A stretch of 26,825 nucleotides of DNA. It comes from a virus. Under the pieces are notes generated by a model. It saw only the letters and a program-made list of their open reading frames with translations, ran no database searches and was not told where the DNA came from. The stretch is from positions 1 to 26,825 of IMG/VR virus record IMGVR_UViG_3300005833_000023. One strand, written 5' to 3'. Both the position numbers and the translations under genes were made by a program. Positions 13,702 through 24,130 of the stretch are shown in pieces. Within the stretch, counting starts at the first letter, position 1; the number at the start of each line of letters is the position of its first letter.

Positions 13702-15260
13702 GCCGCCGCCGAAAGGCAACGTGGTGGGAGGCGGAGGACGCCCAACGAAGCGCCCTCTCGCGCCGGCCCCAGGACTTCAAGGGGATCTACCCCACGACCT
13801 CCTGCGAGGGCCGGTGCATCCCGATGGTCTACGGGTCGGCCATCATCCCCGGGAACGTCATCCTCCTGCCACAGGAGAGTTCCACGGCCAGCGCAGGACG
13901 CATCAGCGCGACCATGATGATCGCCCTCTCGTCCACCCGTCTGTTCTCCGGTGGGCCATCGGCCATCTGGCACGACGGGATCAAGGTCTTCCCGGGCTTC
14001 GGGACCATCTACGACGCGTTCGCGGACGGGACGCAGACCACGGCATGGTCGTATCTCACGACCCCGGTGGCGAGGACGTACACGGAGCTATTCCAGGCGG
14101 CCGGCACCCCGAACGAGATCACGGTCTCCCTGCATGCCAGTTTCACGGCCAACGTCTTGGTCGAGAGGGGTTTCGGGATGGGGGAGTGGGCTACCATGTC
14201 CACACCGAGTGACTACACGGTCTCGGCTGGTGTGTACACGATCTCGTACAACTTCGGTGCGGAACCGAAGAGGGTTCGGATCACCTACACGGCGACGGCC
14301 GTGCCATTCGGCGGCTTGTACACGCTGAGTTACAACGGCACGAGCTACGCCGCATTCATCGCTCTCGACGTAGGGCAGGAGGGACAGAAGCCTTCCGTCG
14401 GCGATTGGAAGTACGAGCTCACCGGGGCCAACGTGTTCCCGGCGGCGGACGGCGGGACCTCCGCCGAGGGCGGGACCGTGCTCCTGCCGACCATCGCGAA
14501 GGACATCCTCACGGGGTACGGCTACGGGCAGTCGTGCGAGTGGCCGGAGTCCCGCATCGACTCGGCGAGCTGGTCGACGTGGCGGGACATGGCCGGGGCA
14601 CACGACCTGTTCGGCGCGCTGGCTCTCACCGAGCAGCGGGACGCGTCCGAGATCCTGGGAGAGATCCTGGCGGCGACGAACACCGACGCCCTCTGGAGCG
14701 ATGGGGTGCTGAAGTTCGTCTGCAACGATCACCGGCCCGCGTCCCAGACCGTGGATGCCATCACCTACGTCTACGCTCCGAGCAGGACGCCGGTGGCGGA
14801 CCTGACCACAGCCGACTTCCTCGTCGACGACCCGGGCGACGACCCGGTCACGATCGAGTTCCTCTCCGAGTCGGACGTCAGGAATTGCTGGCCGGTGGAG
14901 TACCTCGACCGTAACAAGTCTACCACCGAGGGCGAGTGGCCCCGCGCCACGGTCCAGGAGGAGGACGTTGCCGACGTCGAGACCCGCGGCCTGCGGCTCG
15001 CCGACACCACGACGGCGCACTTCTTCACGGCCGAGTCGCGCGCGCGGTGGTACTCCCTCGTCCTCGCCCACGACTCCATCTACCTCCGCCGCACGTTCCG
15101 GTTCCGGGTCGGGGTCGCGCACTGGTACCTCGAGCCCGGCGACATCGTGAGCCTGACCGACGACCGGCTCCTCGACGGGGTCCTCGTGGGGATCACGAGC
15201 ATGGAGGAGAGCGGGGACACCGGCGAACTCGACGTGGAGGCGGAAGATGTCATCTCTTGA
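13698..15260 (+). CDS. Tail tip / phage tail protein (gpJ-like position)
   Basis: A 520-residue, largely beta protein in the position of the tail-tip or central fibre protein. Residues 20-60 (GIYPTTSCEGRCIPMVYGSA) include a small domain with a C-x4-C pair and resemble the start of gpJ-like tip attachment proteins, where a G..ipivYG pattern is usual. The latter half (DILTGYGYGQSCEWPESRID to the end) has the helix-strand make-up of the Phage-tail_3 family, including a GDIVSLTDDRLLDGVLVGI strand pair near the C-terminus. It is much shorter than lambda gpJ (1132 residues), so fibre functions are probably supplied by the separate genes downstream. It overlaps the hub by 4 bp and the peptidase start by 14 bp. 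Confidence 0.7.
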   Translation: MSRRRKATWWEAEDAQRSALSRRPQDFKGIYPTTSCEGRCIPMVYGSAIIPGNVILLPQESSTASAGRISATMMIALSSTRLFSGGPSAIWHDGIKVFPGFGTIYDAFADGTQTTAWSYLTTPVARTYTELFQAAGTPNEITVSLHASFTANVLVERGFGMGEWATMSTPSDYTVSAGVYTISYNFGAEPKRVRITYTATAVPFGGLYTLSYNGTSYAAFIALDVGQEGQKPSVGDWKYELTGANVFPAADGGTSAEGGTVLLPTIAKDILTGYGYGQSCEWPESRIDSASWSTWRDMAGAHDLFGALALTEQRDASEILGEILAATNTDALWSDGVLKFVCNDHRPASQTVDAITYVYAPSRTPVADLTTADFLVDDPGDDPVTIEFLSESDVRNCWPVEYLDRNKSTTEGEWPRATVQEEDVADVETRGLRLADTTTAHFFTAESRARWYSLVLAHDSIYLRRTFRFRVGVAHWYLEPGDIVSLTDDRLLDGVLVGITSMEESGDTGELDVEAEDVIS

Positions 15261-15748
15261 ACCCGCCATGCTCTCGCCGCACCTCTCGGTCGCGGAGTTC
15301 ATGGTCACCCGGCACGGGACCCTCATCGAGGAGCAGCGCCGGATCTGGGACGAGACCCCGGCCATCCGCGAGGCAGCGTCGAGGCTGGCGGTCCAGGTGT
15401 TCGAACCGATCCGGCGGCTCGTCGGGCCGCTGCCATGTCTCCTCCGGCTACCGCTCCCCGTCGCTCAACGCCGCAGTCGGGGGCCACCCCAACTCCCGGC
15501 ACATGTATGGCCTCGCGGTGGACATCATCCCCCTGGAGTGCGAGATCGACAGGGCGATGGGCATCCTGGCCGCGGCCGTTCGGGCGGGCGCGATCCCGGA
15601 CGTCGACCAGGCCATCATCGAGTGCGGCAGCTGGATCCACGTGCAGGGCGCACCGGTCGGGAAGATCGCCAGGAACATGGTCCTAGCCTCAGCCGACGGC
15701 AAGGTGTTCGCGCAGTACCCGCCCACGACACCGGGCGGCGCAGCCTAA
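15247..15748 (+). pseudogene. M15A peptidase (endolysin-like), interrupted by a one-base frameshift
   Basis: Two frames together give one complete peptidase M15A of about 166 residues, a Zn-dependent D,D- or L,D-carboxypeptidase-like murein hydrolase. The first frame, from ATG 15247 (GGAGG at 15236-15240), carries LSPHLSVAEFMVTRHG and VFEPIRRLVGPLP, the normal N-terminal half. The second, from about 15437, begins VSSGYRSPSLNAAVGG and carries the metal site SRHMYGLAVD (His85, Asp92 in the joined protein) and SWIHVQ (His131). The join needs one base, for example T15436, to be skipped. If nothing corrects it, translation continues to a stop at 15768 and lacks the metal site. It may be a sequencing or assembly error, a real mutation, or recoding; no classical +1 signal is visible. 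Its place before a holin-like gene suggests endolysin. Confidence 0.8.
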
Positions 15749-15772
15749 CCCGCAGGATGGAGAGGTGAGCAC

Positions 15773-16003
15773 ATGACGAAGATCTTTGGAGCGAGCTGGA
15801 AGACGACCATCGCCGGACTCGGCATCATCCTGACCGGCCTCGGGAACGCCATCGCGCAGTTCTCGCAGGGCGGGTGGGCGGCGGTGAACCTCACGGAGCT
15901 CATCGCCGCCGCCATCGCGGGCGTGGGCCTGATCCTCGCGAAGGACTCGAACGTGTCGAACGCGCCCTCACCCGCACCCGCCGCCGCGGTGGTGAAGCCG
16001 TAG
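15773..16003 (+). CDS. Holin-like small membrane protein
   Basis: A 76-residue protein with two hydrophobic segments, about 12-29 (TIAGLGIILTGLGNAIAQ) and 42-56 (ELIAAAIAGVGLILA), separated by a Gly/Asn-containing turn. The tail is polar and Pro/Ala-rich, ending in a single Lys. The GLILAKDSNVSN end of the second helix is common in small phage proteins encoded next to lysis enzymes. This topology and position are those of a small class II-type holin that permeabilises the inner membrane. A GAGGTGAGC site precedes the ATG. Membrane location is well supported; the holin role is inferred from context. Confidence 0.6.
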   Translation: MTKIFGASWKTTIAGLGIILTGLGNAIAQFSQGGWAAVNLTELIAAAIAGVGLILAKDSNVSNAPSPAPAAAVVKP

Positions 16004-16009
16004 GGTACT

Positions 16010-16249
16010 GTGCCCGACCACGCCGACATCGTCCGCATCATCTGGACCACGGCCCAGGAGATGGGCCTCACGCGCACCTGGCAGTTCTGGGCCGTGGTCT
16101 CGGTCGTGTTCTTCCTCGTCGTGGCGGGGCGGATCTGGCCGTCGAAGCCTGGCCCGGACGGCGCACCGCCGTTCCCGCTCCAGGGCGGCGAGCCGGGCAA
16201 CGCCGGCAGCCTGCCGCTCGACCAGAAGCCCCCGGAGTCGTACCTGTGA
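16010..16249 (+). CDS. Single-pass membrane protein of the lysis region
   Basis: A 79-residue product from a GTG start, six bases after the holin-like gene. Residues 24-42 (WQFWAVVSVVFFLVVAGRIW) form one clear transmembrane segment. The preceding 22 residues are amphipathic and the following 37 are Pro/Gly-rich with no predicted structure. It could be an antiholin, a second holin subunit or a spanin-like component; nothing decides between them. I recognise no family. It ends in a GTGA overlap with a possible further ORF. Confidence 0.55.
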   Translation: MPDHADIVRIIWTTAQEMGLTRTWQFWAVVSVVFFLVVAGRIWPSKPGPDGAPPFPLQGGEPGNAGSLPLDQKPPESYL

Positions 16250-16482
16250 GCAAACACGGTCATTGTAGGAAAAATTGGAAGTCGCCGACCTATAAGGCGC
16301 GTCAGGGTATCCAGATCCAGCGCCCTGGAGGGCGCGGCGCCGCTGCCGAGCTGCTAACCCCCGGCGCTCCTGCTCGGCTTCCGGGCGCCTCTCTTGCTGG
16401 CGGCGGGGGAGGCGGGCCACGGCGTCCCCTCTCCGGCGGGCTCGCGCCCCCGCCGCCGGCATCTCGCGGAGGTTCAAGATGA
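16246..16482 (+). CDS. Doubtful small ORF, GTGA/ATGA-linked
   Basis: A possible 78-residue product starting at a GTG that overlaps the previous stop and ending in an ATGA overlap with the next gene. That is the pattern of real genes in this window. The first 25 residues (SKHGHCRKNWKSPTYKARQG) are basic and plausible. The remaining 50 are low-complexity Gly/Pro/Ala/Arg that GC-rich non-coding DNA would also give. The start of the stretch is locally AT-rich (16258-16280) and a 7-bp stem (GCGCCCT/AGGGCGC, 16320-16335) lies inside it. It may instead be a 230-base non-coding leader. Confidence 0.3.
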   Translation: MSKHGHCRKNWKSPTYKARQGIQIQRPGGRGAAAELLTPGAPARLPGASLAGGGGGGPRRPLSGGLAPPPPASRGGSR

Positions 16483-16799
16483 GCAACCGCATCGACCTCG
16501 ACCTCGGGGACGGGCACACGCTCCGGTTCTTCATGTGGGCCCCGAACCGAGACCTGAACCCGCGGTACGCCGGAATGCCAGACGTGGAGCGGGCTGGCTG
16601 CACGATCTGGCACTCGGCACCGAGCGGCGACCCGTGCGAGGGCGCCCTCACCTTCGACCTGCCCGAGACGCGACACCTGGCGCCGGATGGTCGCCGCTGG
16701 CAAGTCGAGTCCTGGGACCCGCTGACGATATCCCCAAGCGTGCTCTGCCACTGCGGCGACCACGGCTTCGTCCGCGGCGGGAAGTGGGTGCGCGCATGA
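16479..16799 (+). CDS. DUF6527-like small protein
   Basis: A 106-residue soluble protein. The first half is beta-like (IDLDLGDGHTLRFFMWAPNR). The second half carries SWDPLTISPSVLCHCGDHGF then VRGGKWV, which is the recognisable end of the DUF6527 group, with Cys90 and Cys92 and a His beside them that could bind metal. A further Cys41 and Cys53 lie in AGCTIWHSAPSGDPCEGAL. The biochemical role is unknown. It has an excellent ribosome site (GGAGG, 16468-16472) six bases before the ATG, so it need not depend on the doubtful ORF upstream. It overlaps the next gene by 4 bp. Confidence 0.6.
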   Translation: MSNRIDLDLGDGHTLRFFMWAPNRDLNPRYAGMPDVERAGCTIWHSAPSGDPCEGALTFDLPETRHLAPDGRRWQVESWDPLTISPSVLCHCGDHGFVRGGKWVRA

Positions 16800-16987
16800 T
16801 CGCCACCCCGTACGAGGCCCGGCGCCTGCTCGCCGCCGCGACCGAGGCGCTGGCCAAGCCGGCGACCGGGCCGGAGGATCCGGACTGCACCTGTCCCTAT
16901 TGCACCCGCATGCGCGGCCTCGTGGAGCACTACCGGCGGGAGGTCGCGCTGGCGGACGAGCGGCAGAACCAAGGAGCGTTCGGGTGA
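16796..16987 (+). CDS. Small Cys-containing helical protein
   Basis: A 63-residue product with a helix (PYEARRLLAAATEALAK), a loop containing DCTCPYC (Cys31, 33, 36), and a second helix (MRGLVEHYRREVALADERQN). The C-x-C-x2-C cluster could bind a metal or form disulfides, but with only three cysteines a complete zinc site would need a His, such as His45, or a partner. It is coupled to both neighbours by ATGA and GTGA overlaps. No family is recognised, and nothing shows whether it belongs to lysis or is a passenger. Confidence 0.6.
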   Translation: MIATPYEARRLLAAATEALAKPATGPEDPDCTCPYCTRMRGLVEHYRREVALADERQNQGAFG

Positions 16988-17364
16988 CCGACCCGCGTCC
17001 AGACCGGGCGGGGAACCCCGTCGCGGACCTCCTCGGTGGCCTGCTACGGGGCGGTCGGCCGGGAGACCGCGAGCTCCGGCGCGGGGCCCGGAAGGTGGGC
17101 CTCGTCGCCACCCTGATCGCCCTCCTCGCCTGGCTCCCCTGGCTCCTCGTCCGGGGCGACAACCGCATCGACAGGGTCATCGAGGCGCAGCAGCGGAACG
17201 TAGACCGCCAGGACCAGAACCTGCGCGAGGCGGTGACCGCCATCCACCGGCTTGCCGCCGCCGTGGAGGCCCAAACCACGGAGGACCGCGAGATGCGCCT
17301 CATCCTCCTCTCGACGGACACGAAGCCGGCGAGCCGGAAGTTCTCCCCGAGGCCGGTCCGATGA
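16984..17364 (+). CDS. Membrane-anchored coiled-coil protein (spanin-like or DUF-type)
   Basis: A 126-residue product from a GTG in the overlap. Residues 1-37 are polar and basic, residues 38-57 (VGLVATLIALLAWLPWLLVR) form a transmembrane helix, and residues 60-108 are a coiled coil with heptad-like I/V/L positions (RIDRVIEAQQRNVDRQDQNL). This N-in, single-helix, external coiled-coil layout is like an i-spanin, though the long N-terminal cytoplasmic part is unusual. No lipoprotein o-spanin with a lipobox is visible next to it. A tail-associated scaffold is another possibility. It ends in an ATGA overlap with another membrane/coiled-coil gene. Confidence 0.5.
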   Translation: MTDPRPDRAGNPVADLLGGLLRGGRPGDRELRRGARKVGLVATLIALLAWLPWLLVRGDNRIDRVIEAQQRNVDRQDQNLREAVTAIHRLAAAVEAQTTEDREMRLILLSTDTKPASRKFSPRPVR

Positions 17365-17735
17365 ACGCCCGCGTTTGGCACATCCTCCAGCACCCGTTGC
17401 TCCTGCCGCTGGCCCTCATCGCAGGGGTGGCCGGAGCGGACGTTGCGCGGGGCGTGTGGCTCGAGGTCCACCTCCCCATCTTCGTGGTCGGGGTGTCGGT
17501 CGTCCTCTGCGTGTACCTCATCAGCAGACGAGATCGGGTCTGGGTCCGGGTCACGAGCGATTCCTTCGATGAGGTCCGCCGCGAGCATCGCGAGAAAATC
17601 CGGAGCCTGGAGACGTTCCGCGAACTGCAACTGGAGCACAACCGAAACGAGCGGCGACGCCTGACCGAATCAACGGAACGCATAGATCAACTGGAGCAGC
17701 TCCCCATCATTCTCGCTGCTAGACGGCGAGGGTAG
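17361..17735 (+). CDS. Two-helix membrane protein with basic coiled-coil tail
   Basis: A 124-residue product with hydrophobic segments at about 12-28 (PLLLPLALIAGVAGADV) and 36-55 (VHLPIFVVGVSVVLCVYLIS), then a highly charged helix from 67 to 112 (DEVRREHREKIRSLETFREL) likely to be a cytoplasmic coiled coil. The layout resembles some two-helix antiholins or phage membrane scaffolds, but no family is recognised. It closes the coupled membrane-protein cluster; a 26-base gap with a strong AGGAGG site then precedes the fibre module. Confidence 0.5.
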   Translation: MNARVWHILQHPLLLPLALIAGVAGADVARGVWLEVHLPIFVVGVSVVLCVYLISRRDRVWVRVTSDSFDEVRREHREKIRSLETFRELQLEHNRNERRRLTESTERIDQLEQLPIILAARRRG

Positions 17736-17761
17736 AACGCACACACGCAGAGGAGGATGCC

Positions 17762-18367
17762 ATGGCAGGCAAGAGCAATTTCCTGGAAGGTCAGATGCTC
17801 GCGAGGATGTTCCGTCGGCTCTCCACGGCGGTCGGTGGCGGCAACGCCTCGACCACGAACATCCTGGTCACGAGCTCGACCGGATTCGTTCCCGGCGACC
17901 TCATCAAGGGGACGACGGCAGGCAGCTACCACCTCGTCACCACCGTGCCCGACGGCACGCACGTGACGGTCACGCCCGCCTTCGGTTCTGCGCCCACTAC
18001 CGGGAACCTCGAATGCTGGGGCTACTCCCCGGCTGCGGTGTACGTCGCGCTATTCACCGCGGCGCCGAGCGATGCGGGTGGCGGGACCGAGTGCAGCGGT
18101 GGCAGCTACGCCCGCGCCCAGGTCACGCAGGCAGACTCCAACTGGGGAGCGCCATCCGGTACGCCGAGGAGCATGTCGAACAGCAACGCGGTCAACTTCG
18201 CGACTCCGTCGGCGGGATGGGGAGCCGTCACGCACTACGCCCTGTTCGACGCTGTCTCGTCTGGGAACCTGCTCTACTGGAACACCATCAGCAACGGGCC
18301 CCAGACCATCAACACCGGGAACACCGTCTCGTTCGCCAGCAGCACGATCACGGTGCAGGAGGACTGA
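17762..18367 (+). CDS. Phage tail fibre / structural protein
   Basis: A 201-residue virion protein. The first 22 residues are a short amphipathic start (NFLEGQMLARMFRR). Residues 30-85 form a beta-rich domain. Residues 93-200 carry VYVALFTAAPSDAGGGTECS, SYARAQV, WGAVTHYALFDA and GNLLYWNT, a characteristic module shared by many siphovirus tail-fibre or minor structural proteins, usually ending as here in a strand plus TITVQ. The module is probably an interaction or tip domain; receptor binding is not shown. A strong AGGAGG precedes the ATG. It overlaps the next gene by one base (TGATG). Confidence 0.7.
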   Translation: MAGKSNFLEGQMLARMFRRLSTAVGGGNASTTNILVTSSTGFVPGDLIKGTTAGSYHLVTTVPDGTHVTVTPAFGSAPTTGNLECWGYSPAAVYVALFTAAPSDAGGGTECSGGSYARAQVTQADSNWGAPSGTPRSMSNSNAVNFATPSAGWGAVTHYALFDAVSSGNLLYWNTISNGPQTINTGNTVSFASSTITVQED

Positions 18368-20091
18368 TGCGCCGCGTGCTCTCGCTGCTCCTGCTGCTCC
18401 CGTCGCTGGCCCTCGGCCAGACCTCTGTCTCCGTCCAGACCACCGACACCATCCAGAGCGGGTGCGTGCTCAATGCTGCGAACGTCACGTGCGTGGTTCC
18501 GCTCAGGGGCAAGACCAGCGCCGGGTTCATCGTCACGGCGGTGTCTTCCCCGACCGGGATCACGCTCGTCGCGGAGACGAGCAGAGACGGCACGAACTGG
18601 GATGGGCAGCCGTTTTTCGACATGGACACGGGCGAACCGTTCAGGAACGGGATCCCGAACGCTTCGCTCGCTGTCGGGTTCGGCAAAACGATCGGGCTCG
18701 GCGGCGGCGACCGTTTCGCGCGCATCCGGGTGTCGGCATGGACGTCCGGGTCTGCCACCATCACGGTCACGGCGACGGATTCGGTTCCGCAGGTCCAGGG
18801 CGTAGCGGAGAGATCCTCTGGAGCCGTCACGTTCAACGCCGCGCAGGTTGCAGCGACGGTCAACCTCGCCGGGAGGCGCGGATGCGGGTTCCAGGTGATC
18901 ACCATTTCCAGTCCGGTCGGGTTCACGCTCGTGCCGGAACTCTCGTGGGACGGCGGAACGACCTGGACGGCCACCTCCTTTGACTCGGTCGCCACCGGCC
19001 TCAAGACGACATCGCTCGCGAACGCCGCTATCGCTGCCGGCGCAGCGTGGACCGTGGTGTCCGCAGGCGGTGCCACGCACGCTCGCGTCAGGGCCTCCGC
19101 CTACACCTCTGGGAACTTCGTGGGTCTGATGGTCGCGAGCGACGCCATCGATCCCACGCTGATGTCCTCCACCCCGACTGGCGCGACGTCAGCACCACCG
19201 ACCTACCTCGGCATCGCCGCTCAGGACAGCGTGACCTCGACGACGATGAACCCGATCCGCTCGCAGGCGCACAACACCGGAGCGGCGAGCGTAGGTCTGG
19301 AGACGCTTCCCGCCATCGCTCGGAGCGCCGTGAACACCACGACTGCGGGTCGGTCGTCTGCGCTGTCCGTGGATACCACGAGCGGCGCGCTGAACGTGCG
19401 GCTCACCGACTCGACCACCTACACCTCTCCGCAGGTGAATGCCCACAACACCGCGGCCCCGGGCGCGGGACTGGCCACCATGCCCTTCATCGCCAGGTCC
19501 GCCACGTCGGGCACCACCGCGGGGCGCTCGGCGGCGGGGGTCGTGGACACGACCACCGGCTTCCAGATCGCGAGCATCGGGGACTCCACCACCTTCACGA
19601 AGGCCGGCGTCCTCGCGAACGACACCACCGCCATCGCCAACGGCCTGTCGGTGCTACCAGCCGTAGCGCGCGCGAGCCCGACGGCGGTCACCGCGGGGCG
19701 CGGCGAGATGCTGGAGATGGACACCGCCACGGGTGGCCTCTACGTCGTGGGTGCGGCAACGACTGCGGCTGTCGGGACCTCGACCGGCGCAACCGACGTG
19801 AACACCACGACGAACATCAAGGCGAGCGCCGGGAACGTCTACGGCGTGTCGTGCGTGAACAACAACGCCTCGGCCTGCTTCCTCCAGTTCTACAACACCT
19901 CCGGCTCGCCAACCTGCGGGACGTCAGTGGTGTGGGCGCTGGCCCTGCCGACCTCTGGCACGCTCAACATCCCACCAGGCGCGGTGCCGCTCGCGAACCA
20001 TGCGACTGGGATCGGCGTCTGCATGGGTACGACGCGCACCGGGTCAACTGCCTGCTCTACCGCCAACTCCTGCACGGTATTCTACAAGTGA
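18367..20091 (+). CDS. Sec-signal-bearing fibre-like repeat protein
   Basis: A 574-residue extracellular or periplasmic-type protein. Residues 1-17 (MRRVLSLLLLLPSLALG) are a full Sec signal peptide with n, h and c regions and an Ala-Leu-Gly cleavage site, leaving Gln18 first. Two related beta-sandwich domains follow, about 20-142 and 150-262; compare ITLVAETSRDGTNWDGQPFF with FTLVPELSWDGGTTWTATSF. Three further repeats of about 58-residue period lie at 299-345, 357-405 and 415-461, each with HNT/NDT, G-L-x-x-(L/M)-P-x-(I/V)-A-R and T-T-A-G-R-like motifs. The C-terminal 110 residues hold six cysteines (496, 504, 517, 552, 563, 569) suited to disulfides. A phage virion protein assembled in cytoplasm would not normally have a signal peptide. 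Confidence 0.65.
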   Translation: MRRVLSLLLLLPSLALGQTSVSVQTTDTIQSGCVLNAANVTCVVPLRGKTSAGFIVTAVSSPTGITLVAETSRDGTNWDGQPFFDMDTGEPFRNGIPNASLAVGFGKTIGLGGGDRFARIRVSAWTSGSATITVTATDSVPQVQGVAERSSGAVTFNAAQVAATVNLAGRRGCGFQVITISSPVGFTLVPELSWDGGTTWTATSFDSVATGLKTTSLANAAIAAGAAWTVVSAGGATHARVRASAYTSGNFVGLMVASDAIDPTLMSSTPTGATSAPPTYLGIAAQDSVTSTTMNPIRSQAHNTGAASVGLETLPAIARSAVNTTTAGRSSALSVDTTSGALNVRLTDSTTYTSPQVNAHNTAAPGAGLATMPFIARSATSGTTAGRSAAGVVDTTTGFQIASIGDSTTFTKAGVLANDTTAIANGLSVLPAVARASPTAVTAGRGEMLEMDTATGGLYVVGAATTAAVGTSTGATDVNTTTNIKASAGNVYGVSCVNNNASACFLQFYNTSGSPTCGTSVVWALALPTSGTLNIPPGAVPLANHATGIGVCMGTTRTGSTACSTANSCTVFYK

Positions 20092-20831
20092 AGTTCACCC
20101 TTCCGGTCCTGCTTCTCTTCGCCTCGGCGGCCCAGGCGCAGCACAAGCCATGGGCCGCGGGGTCTCGGGGTGTTGGCGCAACCGCAGCTCCCATCACGAC
20201 GCCCACGCTGACCACGCGCGGCTCACAGGCATGCACGAACGTGGCCGCCAACGGCACCTGCACCGTGGCGAGCGTCACAACCCCTGGCGCGTCGCTCATC
20301 GTCATCGGAGCGCAGGGAGCCGGACGGACGGTTCAGGGCGCGTTCGCGGGCGTGGCAGTCAACGGCAATGCAGCCGCGCGCGCGGTGACGGTCAATTCCG
20401 GCGCGGCTTTCGGGGTATCGGAGATCTGGACATACTGGAGCCCGGCTGCCCTCTCGGCGGTGAACGTAGTGGTGACCAACTCCTCGGCTGGTGTGATCGA
20501 CGCGGGGGTCTGGGTGCTGGACGCGACGAGCAGCGGCACTCCGAGCGCGGGAGCGACGAACAGCGCATCCGCGAATAGCGGGGCCCCGTCGGTGAGCGTC
20601 ACGACCACCGTCAACTCGTCCGTCGTCGTTGCCGCGATGGCGACATTCTCCCAGGCGGCATTCAGTCCAGGTGCGAACACCGCGGAGTACTACGATTTCG
20701 TCGAGGGGCAGGCCCTCGAGCATGCCTGCGAGTACAACACCCAGACCACCACCAGCGGCAATCCATACACGGTCGCCGCGACCACCACGTCCGGATGGTG
20801 GATGGCGAGCGCGGTCGAGATCAAACCGTAA
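20088..20831 (+). CDS. Second Sec-signal-bearing beta-sandwich protein
   Basis: A 247-residue product from a GTG that overlaps the previous gene's stop (GTGA). Residues 1-17 (MKFTLPVLLLFASAAQA) are a standard Sec signal peptide with Ala-Gln-Ala before the cut, again leaving Gln18 first. The mature part is Thr/Ala/Ser/Val-rich with regular beta strands (SLIVIGAQGA, VGAIDAG-like VIDAGVWVLDAT, VNSSVVVAAMATF) and ends GWWMASAVEIKP, the usual last strand of a family of phage and bacterial surface beta-sandwich domains. Its three cysteines (two near 48-57, one near 224) could form disulfides after export. The function is unknown; exported adhesin or fibre component are both possible. Confidence 0.6.
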   Translation: MKFTLPVLLLFASAAQAQHKPWAAGSRGVGATAAPITTPTLTTRGSQACTNVAANGTCTVASVTTPGASLIVIGAQGAGRTVQGAFAGVAVNGNAAARAVTVNSGAAFGVSEIWTYWSPAALSAVNVVVTNSSAGVIDAGVWVLDATSSGTPSAGATNSASANSGAPSVSVTTTVNSSVVVAAMATFSQAAFSPGANTAEYYDFVEGQALEHACEYNTQTTTSGNPYTVAATTTSGWWMASAVEIKP

Positions 20832-20840
20832 GGAGGACTC

Positions 20841-21167
20841 ATGGCGGCACCGACCACGGGCGGCGGAGCGGAGGTCCTGGCCTTGGCCGCCGGGAGCGCC
20901 ACTCCTATCGACGCGACCAACGCGGCGAACCGGCAGCAGGTCTGCGTCTACAACAACGGTCCACAGCCGGTGACCATCCGGTGTCAGAGTGGCTCCGCGC
21001 CGACGATCACGGTCAACATCGGGACCGTCGTCTCGCCGGGCGGGTCGGAGTGGTTCTGGGCCGGGCAGGGTCTCCGGCTCTACGCCAAGGTGGGCCCCGT
21101 GCCTGTAGGCGAGACCGCCGTGGACCAGGCGACTGGAGCTGCTCTCTGGGTGCACGAGGCGGTGTAG
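20841..21167 (+). CDS. Small beta-rich structural protein of the fibre module
   Basis: A 108-residue protein with no signal peptide. It has a low-complexity start (MAAPTTGGGAEVLALAAG), then short strands (NRQQVCVYNNGPQPVTIRCQ) and a distal segment with PGGSEWFWAGQGLRLYAKVG. The pattern of an 'xxNNGPxPVxIrxxxxxxpTxxxG' strand pair plus a 'GgseWfW' turn resembles small phage proteins that add stabilising or binding units to virions. It has a GGAGG site (AAGGAGGACTC) before the ATG and is separated by a few bases from both neighbours. No named family is assigned. Confidence 0.55.
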   Translation: MAAPTTGGGAEVLALAAGSATPIDATNAANRQQVCVYNNGPQPVTIRCQSGSAPTITVNIGTVVSPGGSEWFWAGQGLRLYAKVGPVPVGETAVDQATGAALWVHEAV

Positions 21168-21170
21168 TCG

Positions 21171-22277
21171 GTGGCCCTGCGGCAACACAAGTTTTTCCTC
21201 CTCGCGGTCCTGGCGGCGGACGCTGGTGGCAGCAACGCCCTCGTCGGGAGCACGCTCTCCGGGACAGGGAGCCTCGGTAGCGCCAGCCTCTCCGTAGACA
21301 AGGCCCTCTCCGCGACCGCGGCGGCCGGGTCCGGGTCCGTCGGTTCCGCGACGCTCACGAACTCAGCGGGCGCGGTCGACCTCGTCGGCAGTACGCTTGC
21401 CGGGTCCGGGTCGGTGTCGTCGGCCGCCCTGTCACTCGGGGTCGGCCTGGCAGCTACGACGGCGGCTGGGACGGGTGCGGTCAGTTCCGCGGCGCTGTCA
21501 CTGTCTGTCGCCCTCACCGCGACAACCGTTGCCGGTGCGGGCTCCATCGGTTCGGCGACCCTCACGAACACGGCGGCCGGTGGCGTCAACCTGATCGGGT
21601 CGACGCTCTCGGGTGTAGGCACGCTCGGCTCCGCGACCATCGCCCTGGACAAGCAGATCCAGGGGACGGCGCTGGCGGGGACCGGGAGCGCGGGCAGCGC
21701 GACTCTCGCCCTCGGCGTGGGCCTGTCCGGCACCAGCCTGTCTGGTACTGGCACCCTTGGCTCCGCCACCCTGACGAACACCGCTGCCGGGTCCGTTGCT
21801 CTCATCGGCAGCACGCTCGCTGGTACCGGCACCCTCGGCACCCCAACCCTCTCGCTGACGAAGGCGCTCCAGACGAGCGCGGCATCGGGTGCCGGCGCCA
21901 TCGGTAGCGCCACTCTCACGAACTCCGGCGCGCCGGTCAACCTCATCGGCAGTACCCTGGCCGGGACAGGCTCCATCAGCTCGGCGGCACTGTCCAAGAC
22001 CGCGGCGCTCGTCGGCACCACCCTGGCGGGTGCGGGATCGACCTCCGGAACCCTCTCCCTCATCGTGCGCCTCACGGGGAGCACGCTGGCCGGGTCGGGG
22101 TCAACGTCGGCGGCAGCACTTGGGAACACCGGATCCGAACAGGTCGAGGCCGCGCCGCGAGTCTACGTCACCATCACGCGGCCCGTCCTCGTGGCGATGC
22201 TCACCCGGCCGACTCTCGCTGTGGAAGTCGTCCGGCCTACGCTGGAAGTCAAGATGGAAGGTGACCCATGGCCGTGA
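21171..22277 (+). CDS. Gly/Ser/Thr/Ala repeat fibre protein (13 tandem repeats)
   Basis: A 368-residue repeat protein from a GTG start. After a short hydrophobic start (KFFLLAVLAADAGG), residues 23-320 consist of about 13 imperfect repeats of 20-27 residues with the consensus L-x-G-(S/T)-(T/S)-L-(A/S)-G-(T/S)-G-(S/T)-x-(G/S)-S-A-(T/A)-L-(S/T). Some copies are extended by TNTAAGxVN. Alternating small and branched residues suggest a beta-solenoid or a trimeric fibre shaft. Residues 330-362 hold a different short repeat, three copies of R-P-(V/T)-L-x-V. There is no full signal peptide. It overlaps the next gene by 10 bp. Fibre function is inferred from repeat type and context. Confidence 0.65.
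   Translation: MALRQHKFFLLAVLAADAGGSNALVGSTLSGTGSLGSASLSVDKALSATAAAGSGSVGSATLTNSAGAVDLVGSTLAGSGSVSSAALSLGVGLAATTAAGTGAVSSAALSLSVALTATTVAGAGSIGSATLTNTAAGGVNLIGSTLSGVGTLGSATIALDKQIQGTALAGTGSAGSATLALGVGLSGTSLSGTGTLGSATLTNTAAGSVALIGSTLAGTGTLGTPTLSLTKALQTSAASGAGAIGSATLTNSGAPVNLIGSTLAGTGSISSAALSKTAALVGTTLAGAGSTSGTLSLIVRLTGSTLAGSGSTSAAALGNTGSEQVEAAPRVYVTITRPVLVAMLTRPTLAVEVVRPTLEVKMEGDPWP
21237..22130 (+). repeat. Tandem coding repeats of about 60-80 bp
   Basis: This DNA encodes the 13 repeats of the fibre protein. Units such as CTCATCGGCAGCACGCTCGC recur with variation, and three-unit blocks ending in the TNTAAG-type extension recur at roughly 200-bp spacing. Copy number could change by recombination or replication slippage, changing shaft length. 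Confidence 0.7.
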
Positions 22278-22603: not shown

Positions 22604-22612
22604 TCACCCCTC
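22592..22612. terminator. Weak hairpin at the convergent operon junction
   Basis: GAGGGG (22592-22597) pairs with CCCCTC (22607-22612) around a 9-base loop that contains both convergent stop codons. There is no T-run on either side, so this is at most a poor bidirectional terminator. I list it because it is the only structure between two operons that run into each other. Confidence 0.3.
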
Positions 22613-22627
22613 CTTCGCCGCCGCCGC
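22604..22627 (-). promoter_or_regulatory. Orphan ribosome-site module at operon end
   Basis: Read on the - strand, the last codons GCGGCGGCGAAGGAGGGG plus TGA give AAAKEG and contain AAGGAGG. Elsewhere in this operon the same module starts the next gene; here the next thing is the stop of the opposite operon. It looks like a remnant of a lost downstream gene. Confidence 0.5.
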
Positions 22628-22927
22628 GATCCGGCGCAGGAACAAGCCGCCTTTCGCGTGGTGCTCGTACATCGCCCGGCCGGCGGCGCGCGCCTCCTCC
22701 TCGCTCGGCCGGTACCACTCCCACGTCGGCTCTGGCGCATCGCGTGGCGGCCGGTAGAAGCAGGACTGCGAGATGCCCTTGCAGGTCTCGTCGGTTGGCT
22801 CGCTCCCGTGTCCCCGGCAGCGCAGGAGGAACGGCGTCACGCCCTCGTCGCGATCGATCGTCACGATGCCGACGCCGCACTCCGGGCAGAGGTAGGCGTT
22901 GATCGGCTGGCCGCTCCTGAGGCTCAC
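22604..22927 (-). CDS. Small zinc-ribbon-like phage protein
   Basis: A 107-residue protein, last gene of the - strand operon. The start, QPINAYLCPECGVGIVTIDR, gives a CPEC knuckle; later cysteines at CRGHG, CKG and CFYR could complete a metal site. DEGVTPFLLRC followed later by EPTWEWYRPSEEEA is a combination seen in a widespread small phage family of unknown function. The GTG start overlaps the previous stop (GTGA) with AAGGAGG six bases before it. The C-terminus AAAAKEG encodes another AAGGAGG, although no gene follows. It probably acts early in infection with the other small proteins of the operon; no activity can be assigned. Confidence 0.6.
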   Translation of the reverse strand: MSLRSGQPINAYLCPECGVGIVTIDRDEGVTPFLLRCRGHGSEPTDETCKGISQSCFYRPPRDAPEPTWEWYRPSEEEARAAGRAMYEHHAKGGLFLRRIAAAAKEG

Positions 22928-22946
22928 GGTCCCTCCTTCGCCGCCG
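22924..22946 (-). promoter_or_regulatory. Ribosome-site module in C-terminus, serving 22604-22927
   Basis: On the - strand GCGGCGAAGGAGGGACCGTG contains AAGGAGG encoding AAKEGP of this gene's end and stands six bases before the GTG of the next gene. The same AAKEG-coding module recurs at four other gene ends. Confidence 0.7.
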
Positions 22947-23367
22947 TCAGCGCGGCGCGGGCCCTACGCTCCCACTCGTCCAAGCCGCAGTCGCACGGCG
23001 ACCCTCGCTCCGTGCCGGTGGACTTGGATGCACACAGCATCGCGTGCTCGTGGTACCAGTAGCGATTCGATGGCCCGACGCCACACTCGTTCACCTCGTC
23101 CACTAGCGCGAGCAACTCCGTGCGCTCCCGCTCCAGTGCGGCGAGGCGGGCTGATTGCGCGGCGTAGCGCACCTGAGCGGCGTCCCATGCGTCCACGATC
23201 CGTTCGGCCCGCTCGAAATCGTGCCGCGCCTGCTCACACGCCCGGTCCTCGTAGTACCGCATCCTAGCGACCTCCCGCTCCGCCGCTTCGGCTCGGGCGC
23301 GGAGGGAGGTGTTTTCGGCCGCGCACTGACCACAACACCATCCTGGATGACCTTCTTCGTGCGCCAT
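22924..23367 (-). CDS. Cys-containing coiled-coil phage protein
   Basis: A 147-residue protein. The N-terminal HPGWCCGQCAAEN has a C-C-x2-C cluster, residues 18-85 are a charged helix likely to be a coiled coil (RARAEAAEREVARMRYYEDR), and residues 92-112 (NECGVGPSNRYWYHEHAMLC) plus SPCDCGLDEWERRARAAL form a second Cys/His-rich part. The organisation (Cys knuckle, coiled coil, Cys/His end) suggests a metal-stabilised dimer. No named family is recognised. The ATG is preceded by AAGGAGGGATAG derived from the end of the preceding gene. Confidence 0.55.
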   Translation of the reverse strand: MAHEEGHPGWCCGQCAAENTSLRARAEAAEREVARMRYYEDRACEQARHDFERAERIVDAWDAAQVRYAAQSARLAALERERTELLALVDEVNECGVGPSNRYWYHEHAMLCASKSTGTERGSPCDCGLDEWERRARAALTAAKEGP

Positions 23368-23388
23368 CTATCCCTCCTTCGCGGCAGC
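23368..23388 (-). promoter_or_regulatory. Ribosome-site module in C-terminus, serving 22924-23367
   Basis: On the - strand the last codons read GCCGCGAAGGAGGGA plus TAG, giving AAKEG at the protein end and an AAGGAGG five bases before the following ATG at 23367. Confidence 0.7.
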
Positions 23389-23580
23389 AAGAATAGCGTC
23401 TAGGTCCCTCATCGCCGCATGGGCCTTCTCGAACCTGCGACGGATGCGGACGATGTCAGCGCATCGCCCCGGGCAGTTGCAGACCAGGCAGAGCACCCGT
23501 CCGCACCACGGGCAGCGCGTCACGGCCCGCCTTGGCACCCGCTTTTCGCACACGACGCATGGCGGACCTGCGGCGCCCAT
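23368..23580 (-). CDS. Eight-cysteine zinc-finger-like small protein
   Basis: A 70-residue product. Cysteines at 8, 11, 23, 26, 31, 34, 36 and 40 fall into C-x2-C, C-x2-C, C-x2-C and C-x3-C pairs (PPCVVCEKR, TRCPWCGRVLC, LVCNCPGRC), enough for two zinc ions in a compact finger that resembles a RING or treble-clef arrangement. The rest is a basic helix (IVRIRRRFEKAHAAMRDLDA) suited to binding nucleic acid or a protein partner. The reading frame is open upstream as Arg-rich shadow; the ATG at 23580 is in a TGATG overlap with the previous gene and close behind its AAGGAGG. Function unknown. Small phage zinc fingers often target host enzymes. Confidence 0.6.
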   Translation of the reverse strand: MGAAGPPCVVCEKRVPRRAVTRCPWCGRVLCLVCNCPGRCADIVRIRRRFEKAHAAMRDLDAILAAAKEG

Positions 23581-23600
23581 CACCCCTCCTTCGCCGCCGC
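23580..23600 (-). promoter_or_regulatory. Ribosome-site module in C-terminus, serving 23368-23580
   Basis: On the - strand GCGGCGAAGGAGGGG plus TGATG gives the AAAKEG protein end, and the AAGGAGG lies four bases before the ATG of the next gene, inside the one-base overlap. Confidence 0.7.
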
Positions 23601-23810
23601 GCAGCGCGCCATACAGTCCCGGGTGTACTGGTGCAGCGTGCGCCGGCCGCACCGCTGGCAGACGGTCGCGTCGGGCCCGGCCTGCTCCTCCGGCGTGCAG
23701 GGGTTGCTCTTCCGCTCCGCCAGGAGGCGGTAGTAGTGCTCGACCACGTCGCCGGGCCGCTCGCGTGCGAGGCCATGCGCGTCGCTCCAGCACTGCTCGC
23801 AGCAGGCCAT
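23580..23810 (-). CDS. Small Cys-rich phage protein (GPDA-x-C-x2-C type)
   Basis: A 76-residue protein beginning MACCEQCWSDAHG, with a central HYYRLLAERKSNPCTPEEQA and then GPDATVCQRCGRRTLHQYTR-type sequence. The combination of CxxCWSDA, HPC/NPCTPEEQAG and GPDA..C..C.....H is a widespread small family in phages of diverse hosts, function unknown. Cysteines at 3, 4, 7, 38, 51, 54, 66 and 70 plus His60 could bind zinc. It is coupled downstream by TGATG and upstream by the AAGGAG in the preceding gene. Confidence 0.65.
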   Translation of the reverse strand: MACCEQCWSDAHGLARERPGDVVEHYYRLLAERKSNPCTPEEQAGPDATVCQRCGRRTLHQYTRDCMARCAAAKEG

Positions 23811-23812
23811 GG

Positions 23813-23834
23813 TCAGGTCTCCTTCGCCGCCGCC
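23813..23834 (-). promoter_or_regulatory. Ribosome-site module in C-terminus, serving 23580-23810
   Basis: On the - strand GCGGCGAAGGAGACCTGACC leads to ATG 23810. AAGGAG stands eight bases before the start. The encoded end is AAAKET, a variant of the AAAKEG seen in the following genes. Confidence 0.65.
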
Positions 23835-24130
23835 GAGAGCGCGACGCGGAGATCGGTCAGGGACTTCCTTCGGGCATCTGCGAATTCCGGATCGTCCAGA
23901 TCACCCCATGAATCCATGTCATCGATCCGTTGCGCCGCTTCGCGGACCCGCTCCAGCGCGGCGAGGCGGGCCTCGGCAGCCTCGGCGCGGGCGCGGAGGG
24001 CCTCGGCCTCAACCCACAACCGGACAAGTTCTCTCCCGGCCTTGCCTTGGAACAGCGTCCCATCCTCGGCTAGGAACTCATCCGGCTTGGTCTCGAACTC
24101 GGCGGTCATGGTTCGCTCGTGAATGATCAT
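23813..24130 (-). CDS. Small acidic coiled-coil protein
   Basis: A 105-residue product rich in Glu, Ala and Arg without cysteine. Residues 12-36 (FETKPDEFLAEDGTLFQGKA) are a short globular start, residues 37-68 form a coiled coil (VEAEALRARAEAAEARLAAL), and residues 70-100 a second acidic helix region (IDDMDSWGDLDDPEF). ATG 24130 (two bases after the previous stop) and ATG 24109 are both possible; neither has a strong ribosome site, so the start is uncertain. The end reads AAAKET and encodes the AAGGAG for the next gene. No family recognised. Confidence 0.5.
   Translation of the reverse strand: MIIHERTMTAEFETKPDEFLAEDGTLFQGKAGRELVRLWVEAEALRARAEAAEARLAALERVREAAQRIDDMDSWGDLDDPEFADARRKSLTDLRVALSAAAKET

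Follow-up and report, generated by a model that had tools for sequence, protein, structure and literature searches.

Results

Organisation of the locus

The window, i.e. the whole stretch of DNA analysed here, is the record of a linear 26.8-kb IMG/VR virus with 68% GC. It contains TerL, portal, prohead protease, capsid, tape measure and tail genes, and its TerL is only ∼38% identical to the TerL of phages with many different hosts. The region studied has the gene order lysis module, gp80-like gene, A, B, C and D (a repeat gene), with the following features:

15247-17735, plus strand: lysis module with an M15 endolysin split over two frames and small membrane proteins, one of them weakly spanin-like
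17762-18367, plus strand: gp80-like fibre/head gene, no signal (PF23140, E 2.5e-30; PHROG 240)
18367-20091, plus strand: gene A, predicted Sec-exported fibre-like protein of 574 aa
18367-18417, plus strand: predicted signal peptide of A, residues 1-17, SPase I site ALG/Q, rule-based score 4.47
18418-18786, plus strand: N-terminal beta-sandwich of A, XepA/YomS-like fold, 2 Cys, AlphaFold pLDDT mostly 55-89
18805-19155, plus strand: second copy of the N-terminal domain of A, 38% identical to the first when aligned
19777-20088, plus strand: C-terminal all-beta domain of A with six Cys, AlphaFold pLDDT 91-96 over residues 481-574
20088-20831, plus strand: gene B, predicted Sec-exported beta-rich protein of 247 aa, GTG start overlapping the stop of A
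20088-20138, plus strand: predicted signal peptide of B, residues 1-17, site AQA/Q, rule-based score 4.7
20841-21167, plus strand: gene C, signal-less product of 108 aa, also conserved in the related loci L002 and L092 (77-89% identity)
21171-22277, plus strand: gene D, 368-aa repeat protein, possible third signal at residues 1-18

The lysis module was assigned from matches to Pfam PF08291 (1.3e-9), the PHROG 894 endolysin (1e-13) and the PHROG 214 Rz-like spanin (0.0045). The reading frame of the M15 endolysin (15247-15745) switches at about 15430, with PF08291 found in the second frame only, and this switch is a frameshift that is either programmed or an assembly error. The gene upstream of A had been described as an ordinary fibre gene; PF23140 (Podophage GP4 fiber I, gp80) agrees with this, though PHROG 240 is labelled 'head protein'. 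Its stop codon (18365-18367) overlaps the ATG of gene A at 18367 (TGATG), and the GTG of gene B at 20088 overlaps the stop of A at 20089-20091 (GTGA). Re-reading the sequence returned the coordinates, overlaps and signal residues of A and B given in the earlier note, as well as its six cysteines within 74 residues near the C-terminus of A (residues 496, 504, 517, 552, 563 and 569). The GC3 values of 0.82-0.86 indicate that both genes are coding. Further downstream, on the minus strand (22604-24130), several small ORFs in a row have AAAKEG or a similar C-terminus. Their last codons probably coincide with the ribosome-binding site of the gene that follows.

Signal peptides of A, B and D

Signals were identified with a rule-based Sec/SPase I test and not with SignalP; the rule asks for a positive n-region, a charge-free hydrophobic core and the −3/−1 pattern. 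Gene A starts with MRRVLSLLLLLPSLALG/QTS and gene B with MKFTLPVLLLFASAAQA/QHK, and in both the test places the cut after residue 17 and thus before Gln18. Both N-termini have a positive n-region, a hydrophobic core and small residues at −3 and −1. No additional membrane segment is clear in either protein (means over 19-residue windows were ≤1.41 beyond residue 30), and neither has a lipobox with Cys at +1, the sites being ALG/Q and AQA/Q. When the residues of each protein were shuffled, the real score was reached in 49 of 20,000 shuffles for A and in 17 of 20,000 for B. The rule fired on only one of the 195 ORFs in the loci of signal-less homologues. We therefore reject a chance signal. Compared with its counterpart in L002, gene A showed a dN/dS of 0.15 (0.09/0.63) in the signal codons and 0.42 (0.38/0.89) in the rest, where 17 codons are few and the comparison is supporting only. 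Judged from sequence, export of A and B is very likely.

The earlier note named two signal genes; A and B stand, and a possible third, gene D, went unmentioned there. The N-terminus of D reads MALRQHKFFLLAVLAADA/GG with a hydrophobic core mean of 3.1, and its L092 homologue passes the signal test. Gene D is of low complexity, with GSTLSGTGSLGSA-type units in the window (21171-22277); the repeat units are unlike in each relative (L002, 10211-10981; L092, 1687-2721).

Predicted folds

No Pfam match was obtained for A or B, and the Peptidase_S74 chaperone domain is absent from both and from 14 related records. In the AlphaFold model of A the all-beta C-terminal domain is confident, the N-terminal domain moderately so, and the middle is disordered. 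Among solved structures the best match of the N-terminal domain was XepA, with Z 12.1 over 107 residues and an rmsd of 2.5 at moderate model pLDDT, followed by YomS with Z 11.2; the next matches scored 9.0 and below (VIA). The predicted domain has the C2-like beta-sandwich of these two proteins. The match is by fold only, as a search with profile A11 against PDB sequences returned nothing meaningful. The Foldseek PDB list for A was that of a generic beta-sandwich with low TM, and only the VIA re-alignment separates XepA and YomS from the rest. Matches of A in BFVD were mostly uncharacterised phage proteins. For B, which is predicted to be beta-rich, the model was of low confidence (pLDDT 46) and too poor for a fold search. 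The description of A and B as fibre-like holds in a loose sense only, i.e. for all-beta virion-type domains; one cassette gene of the L021 phage is a tail-fibre homologue.

Relatives and conservation of the signal

Locus L002 has the same order of gp80-like gene, A, B, C and D. Its A is syntenic and 62% identical, and keeps the signal (MRALALLLLLPALALG/Q); its B has the same GTGA overlap, reads into MTSILLALALAVLPTGRLATA and is 29% identical to B of the window. L092 holds a third copy of B-C-D. Conservation of the B signal is weaker than that of A because the strict rule needs K or R before the core, which B of L002 and of L092 lack, although both N-termini are hydrophobic. Single-protein scans with the B family gave nothing new.

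Scans with the C-terminal domain of A returned 12 and then 46 viral loci. Including the one in the window, 14 distinct proteins carry a predicted signal (MRKLFAALTLCAGVSLAQ, MKKLILLIGLVLALAAPASA, MKLLSLFLLALVWASASPSLA, MRKLLLLAVPLLLCAQQ and others), among them all nearest relatives of the domain. The pattern recurs: no fewer than twelve further environmental phages encode relatives that likewise carry predicted signals. In L003 and L033 the mature protein would be little more than the C-terminal domain, with no docking module. The remaining, more distant homologues have no signal; they include Caulobacter, Octadecabacter, Arthrobacter and cyanophage proteins and are ordinary cytosolic virion-type phage proteins. 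The earlier note had regarded homologues lacking the hydrophobic N-terminus as evidence against an export signal. Here the outcome is mixed yet informative: the close homologues all keep it and the distant ones are without it. We found no prophage homologues in two scans of genome contigs and no plasmid homologues. A tblastn search of INPHARED gave no match for A, B or the A protein of L018; only A of L020 matched cultured relatives, and every one of these that was inspected lacked a signal. One 8.3-kb cassette region was base-for-base identical in five IMG/VR contigs (L013-L017).

Cysteines

At least two Cys were present in 11 of 13 signal-bearing C-terminal domains compared to 1 of 32 others (Fisher p 9e-8, not corrected for phylogeny). 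The pairs fall at two different pair positions, and A of the window has six Cys. Phylogenetic pairing left the direction unchanged, with only three independent pairs and no significance. The presence of Cys pairs in signal-bearing domains fits an oxidising compartment, as the earlier note had proposed for A; the statistical association agrees with that proposal and loses significance after the phylogenetic correction.

Origin of the signal

The tree of the C-terminal domain needs about five changes of the signal label, at least three of them on well-supported branches. In L059 residue 22, which follows ...LRTFA, aligns with residue 2 of signal-less phage proteins (L047 over the whole length, E 5e-31; L073 over the N-terminal module, E 1e-4), i.e. 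the signal is fused exactly at the start point of the cytosolic homologues. A similar fusion onto an NPNGQATxANSAPV module was seen by eye in the third signal gene of L083. The tree and the L059 fusion together suggest that the signal was added. Gene A may have arisen when beta-sandwich modules, which in most phages belong to cytosolic virion-type proteins, acquired a signal peptide. The claim that these N-termini are export signals is supported by their retention across related phages, the roughly five changes on the tree, the precise fusion in L059 and the association with Cys pairs.

Genomic context

Signal genes are often grouped, two to five in a row, within head, tail or lysis modules. 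Three each were found in L077 (the L020 phage) and L078 (the L021 phage), four in L081, next to two large ORFs that resemble packaging genes by eye, and five in L083. The last signal gene of L078 is a long homologue of the signal-less tail fibres HTVC112P gp48 and P817. The last gene of the L083 run (16687-18093) lies in a phage structural module and encodes a predicted exported apiosidase-like glycoside hydrolase (PF13204, 1e-41; PF12904) with Collagen_bind_2. Such a glycosidase within a cassette fits an action on extracellular glycans. As the cassettes adjoin portal, capsid, tail or lysis genes, they lie in phage structural regions. In the window, A is one gene downstream of the lysis module; its relatives elsewhere sit in other places. 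The cassette of the 141-kb phage at L018 also contains a lipoprotein-like gene (2203-2535, LGCAQ). In the Caulobacter phage Cr30 (L024, 3818-5002) an annotated beta-1,4 xylanase gene overlaps the relative of A that lacks a signal, and this is another link of the A domain with glycan enzymes.

Comparison with known systems

The C-terminal domain of A, and often the N-terminal domain too, is found in Caulobacter phages S2B, Cr30 and KSC, cyanophage S-SRP01 and Arthrobacter phage Tweety19; unlike A, these relatives have no signal peptide and 0-1 Cys in the C-terminal domain. Phage lambda Lom is exported and encoded beside the tail-fibre gene, which resembles the situation of A and B, but there is no sign here of its outer-membrane beta-barrel. 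XepA and YomS, lytic cassette proteins of the Bacillus prophages PBSX and SPbeta, have a beta-sandwich fold like that of the N-terminal domain of A, which differs in its added repeats, its Cys-rich C-terminal domain and the lack of detectable sequence similarity. XepA lies inside the lytic cassette, whereas A and B begin one gene downstream of a lysis module. XepA is reported to undergo export in the course of phage development and to be missing from the particles; it is cytotoxic and needed both its domains for activity (PMC6834076). Llp of T5 and Cor of T1 and KanT1 are phage-encoded exported envelope proteins, as proposed for A and B, but they are small lipoproteins. In A and B the sites are of the SPase I type, a lipobox is absent and the domains are beta-sandwich or beta-rich. 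FhuA is the protein blocked by Cor, and exclusion of this type also keeps progeny from adsorbing to the remnants of lysed cells (PMC13164509). In the literature searched we found no precedent for signal-bearing fibre genes, and novelty is judged within that scope.

Discussion

The predicted signals, their conservation, the Cys-pair association and the cassette organisation are established at the level of sequence. From these we propose that A, B and perhaps D make up a late cassette whose products are exported by Sec. A and B would be made late together with the gp80-like gene, after the lysis module, and cleaved by signal peptidase; they would then fold with disulfides in the periplasm, or outside the cell in a monoderm host, and accumulate until lysis releases them together with the virions, of which they would form no part. 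By the logic of Llp and Cor, they may be free adhesins or glycan-binding proteins acting on the envelope of the dying cell and on its debris, where masking or clearing of receptors or surface glycans would spare progeny from being lost. We hold this role tentatively, at a little under an even chance. It is favoured by the retention of the signal, the signal changes on the tree, the L059 fusion, the Cys pairs, the runs of signal genes, the XepA fold and the short proteins of L003 and L033. Against it, the L059 protein still has the N-terminal module seen in its cytosolic homologues, and this module could also serve virion attachment; moreover, periplasmic delivery alone does not reach the outer surface of a diderm host. 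The Cys association falls short of significance under phylogenetic correction and XepA is matched by fold only.

The same L059 module, complete behind its signal, would be expected if the proteins were exported for disulfide folding and docked on virions after lysis as head or tail decoration. The signal-less relatives are virion-type, that of S-SRP01 lying between capsid-assembly and capsid genes; A and B of L002 are located upstream of the major head gene, and the long tail-fibre homologue of the L021 phage also bears a signal. Such assembly in two compartments nevertheless appears rather unlikely, given that the short members consist of signal and C-terminal domain only and that the closest solved fold to the N-terminal domain of A belongs to a protein absent from particles. 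Given the XepA-like fold, an exported protein outside the virion is somewhat more likely than a coating. The fold also raises the idea that A and B are membrane- or wall-active proteins aiding envelope disruption, as proposed for the cytotoxic XepA. A and B do come after the lysis module, the L018 cassette is near an endolysin and the KSC relative adjoins a SAR endolysin and spanins. Yet most cassettes have portal, capsid or tail genes as neighbours, the members include long fibres and a glycosidase, the KSC protein has no signal and both domains were required for XepA activity, and we consider a role in lysis improbable. Of masking or clearing, decoration of virions after lysis and help in lysis, we judge masking or clearing to be the likeliest.

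Two further readings are less likely still. As cleavage of A and B is itself a prediction, the hydrophobic N-terminus might be an uncleaved membrane or virion anchor; this is very unlikely, since diverse members have small −3/−1 residues in common and begin the mature protein with a polar residue, usually Gln, Cys pairs go with the signal and no cytosolic homologue has such a segment. Hardly more credible, and if anything less so, is a set of morons, i.e. captured genes for host surface proteins that have their own signals and no part in the phage cycle. The apiosidase-like member of L083 looks bacterial, but the domains of A are phage-type with the signal added to phage modules, and the genes, which are coupled to structural ones, are found again in syntenic relatives, with purifying selection seen for A.

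The cytoplasm is regarded as the place where the structural proteins of tailed phages fold and assemble. A broader possibility, which we regard as doubtful, is that some tailed phages have repeatedly added a Sec signal to virion-type modules for decoration or fibres and made secreted proteins of them, so that some surface components of the particle mature in the periplasm and join virions or envelope debris only after lysis. If true, two-compartment assembly or a secreted-adhesin strategy would be new to the literature searched, and phages of unrelated kinds would deliberately export adhesins, decoration proteins or glycosidases late in infection. The idea is directly testable with reporter fusions and with proteomics of virions and periplasm. 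It would bear on how progeny avoid rebinding to debris and on proteins of environmental phages that are as yet unassigned.
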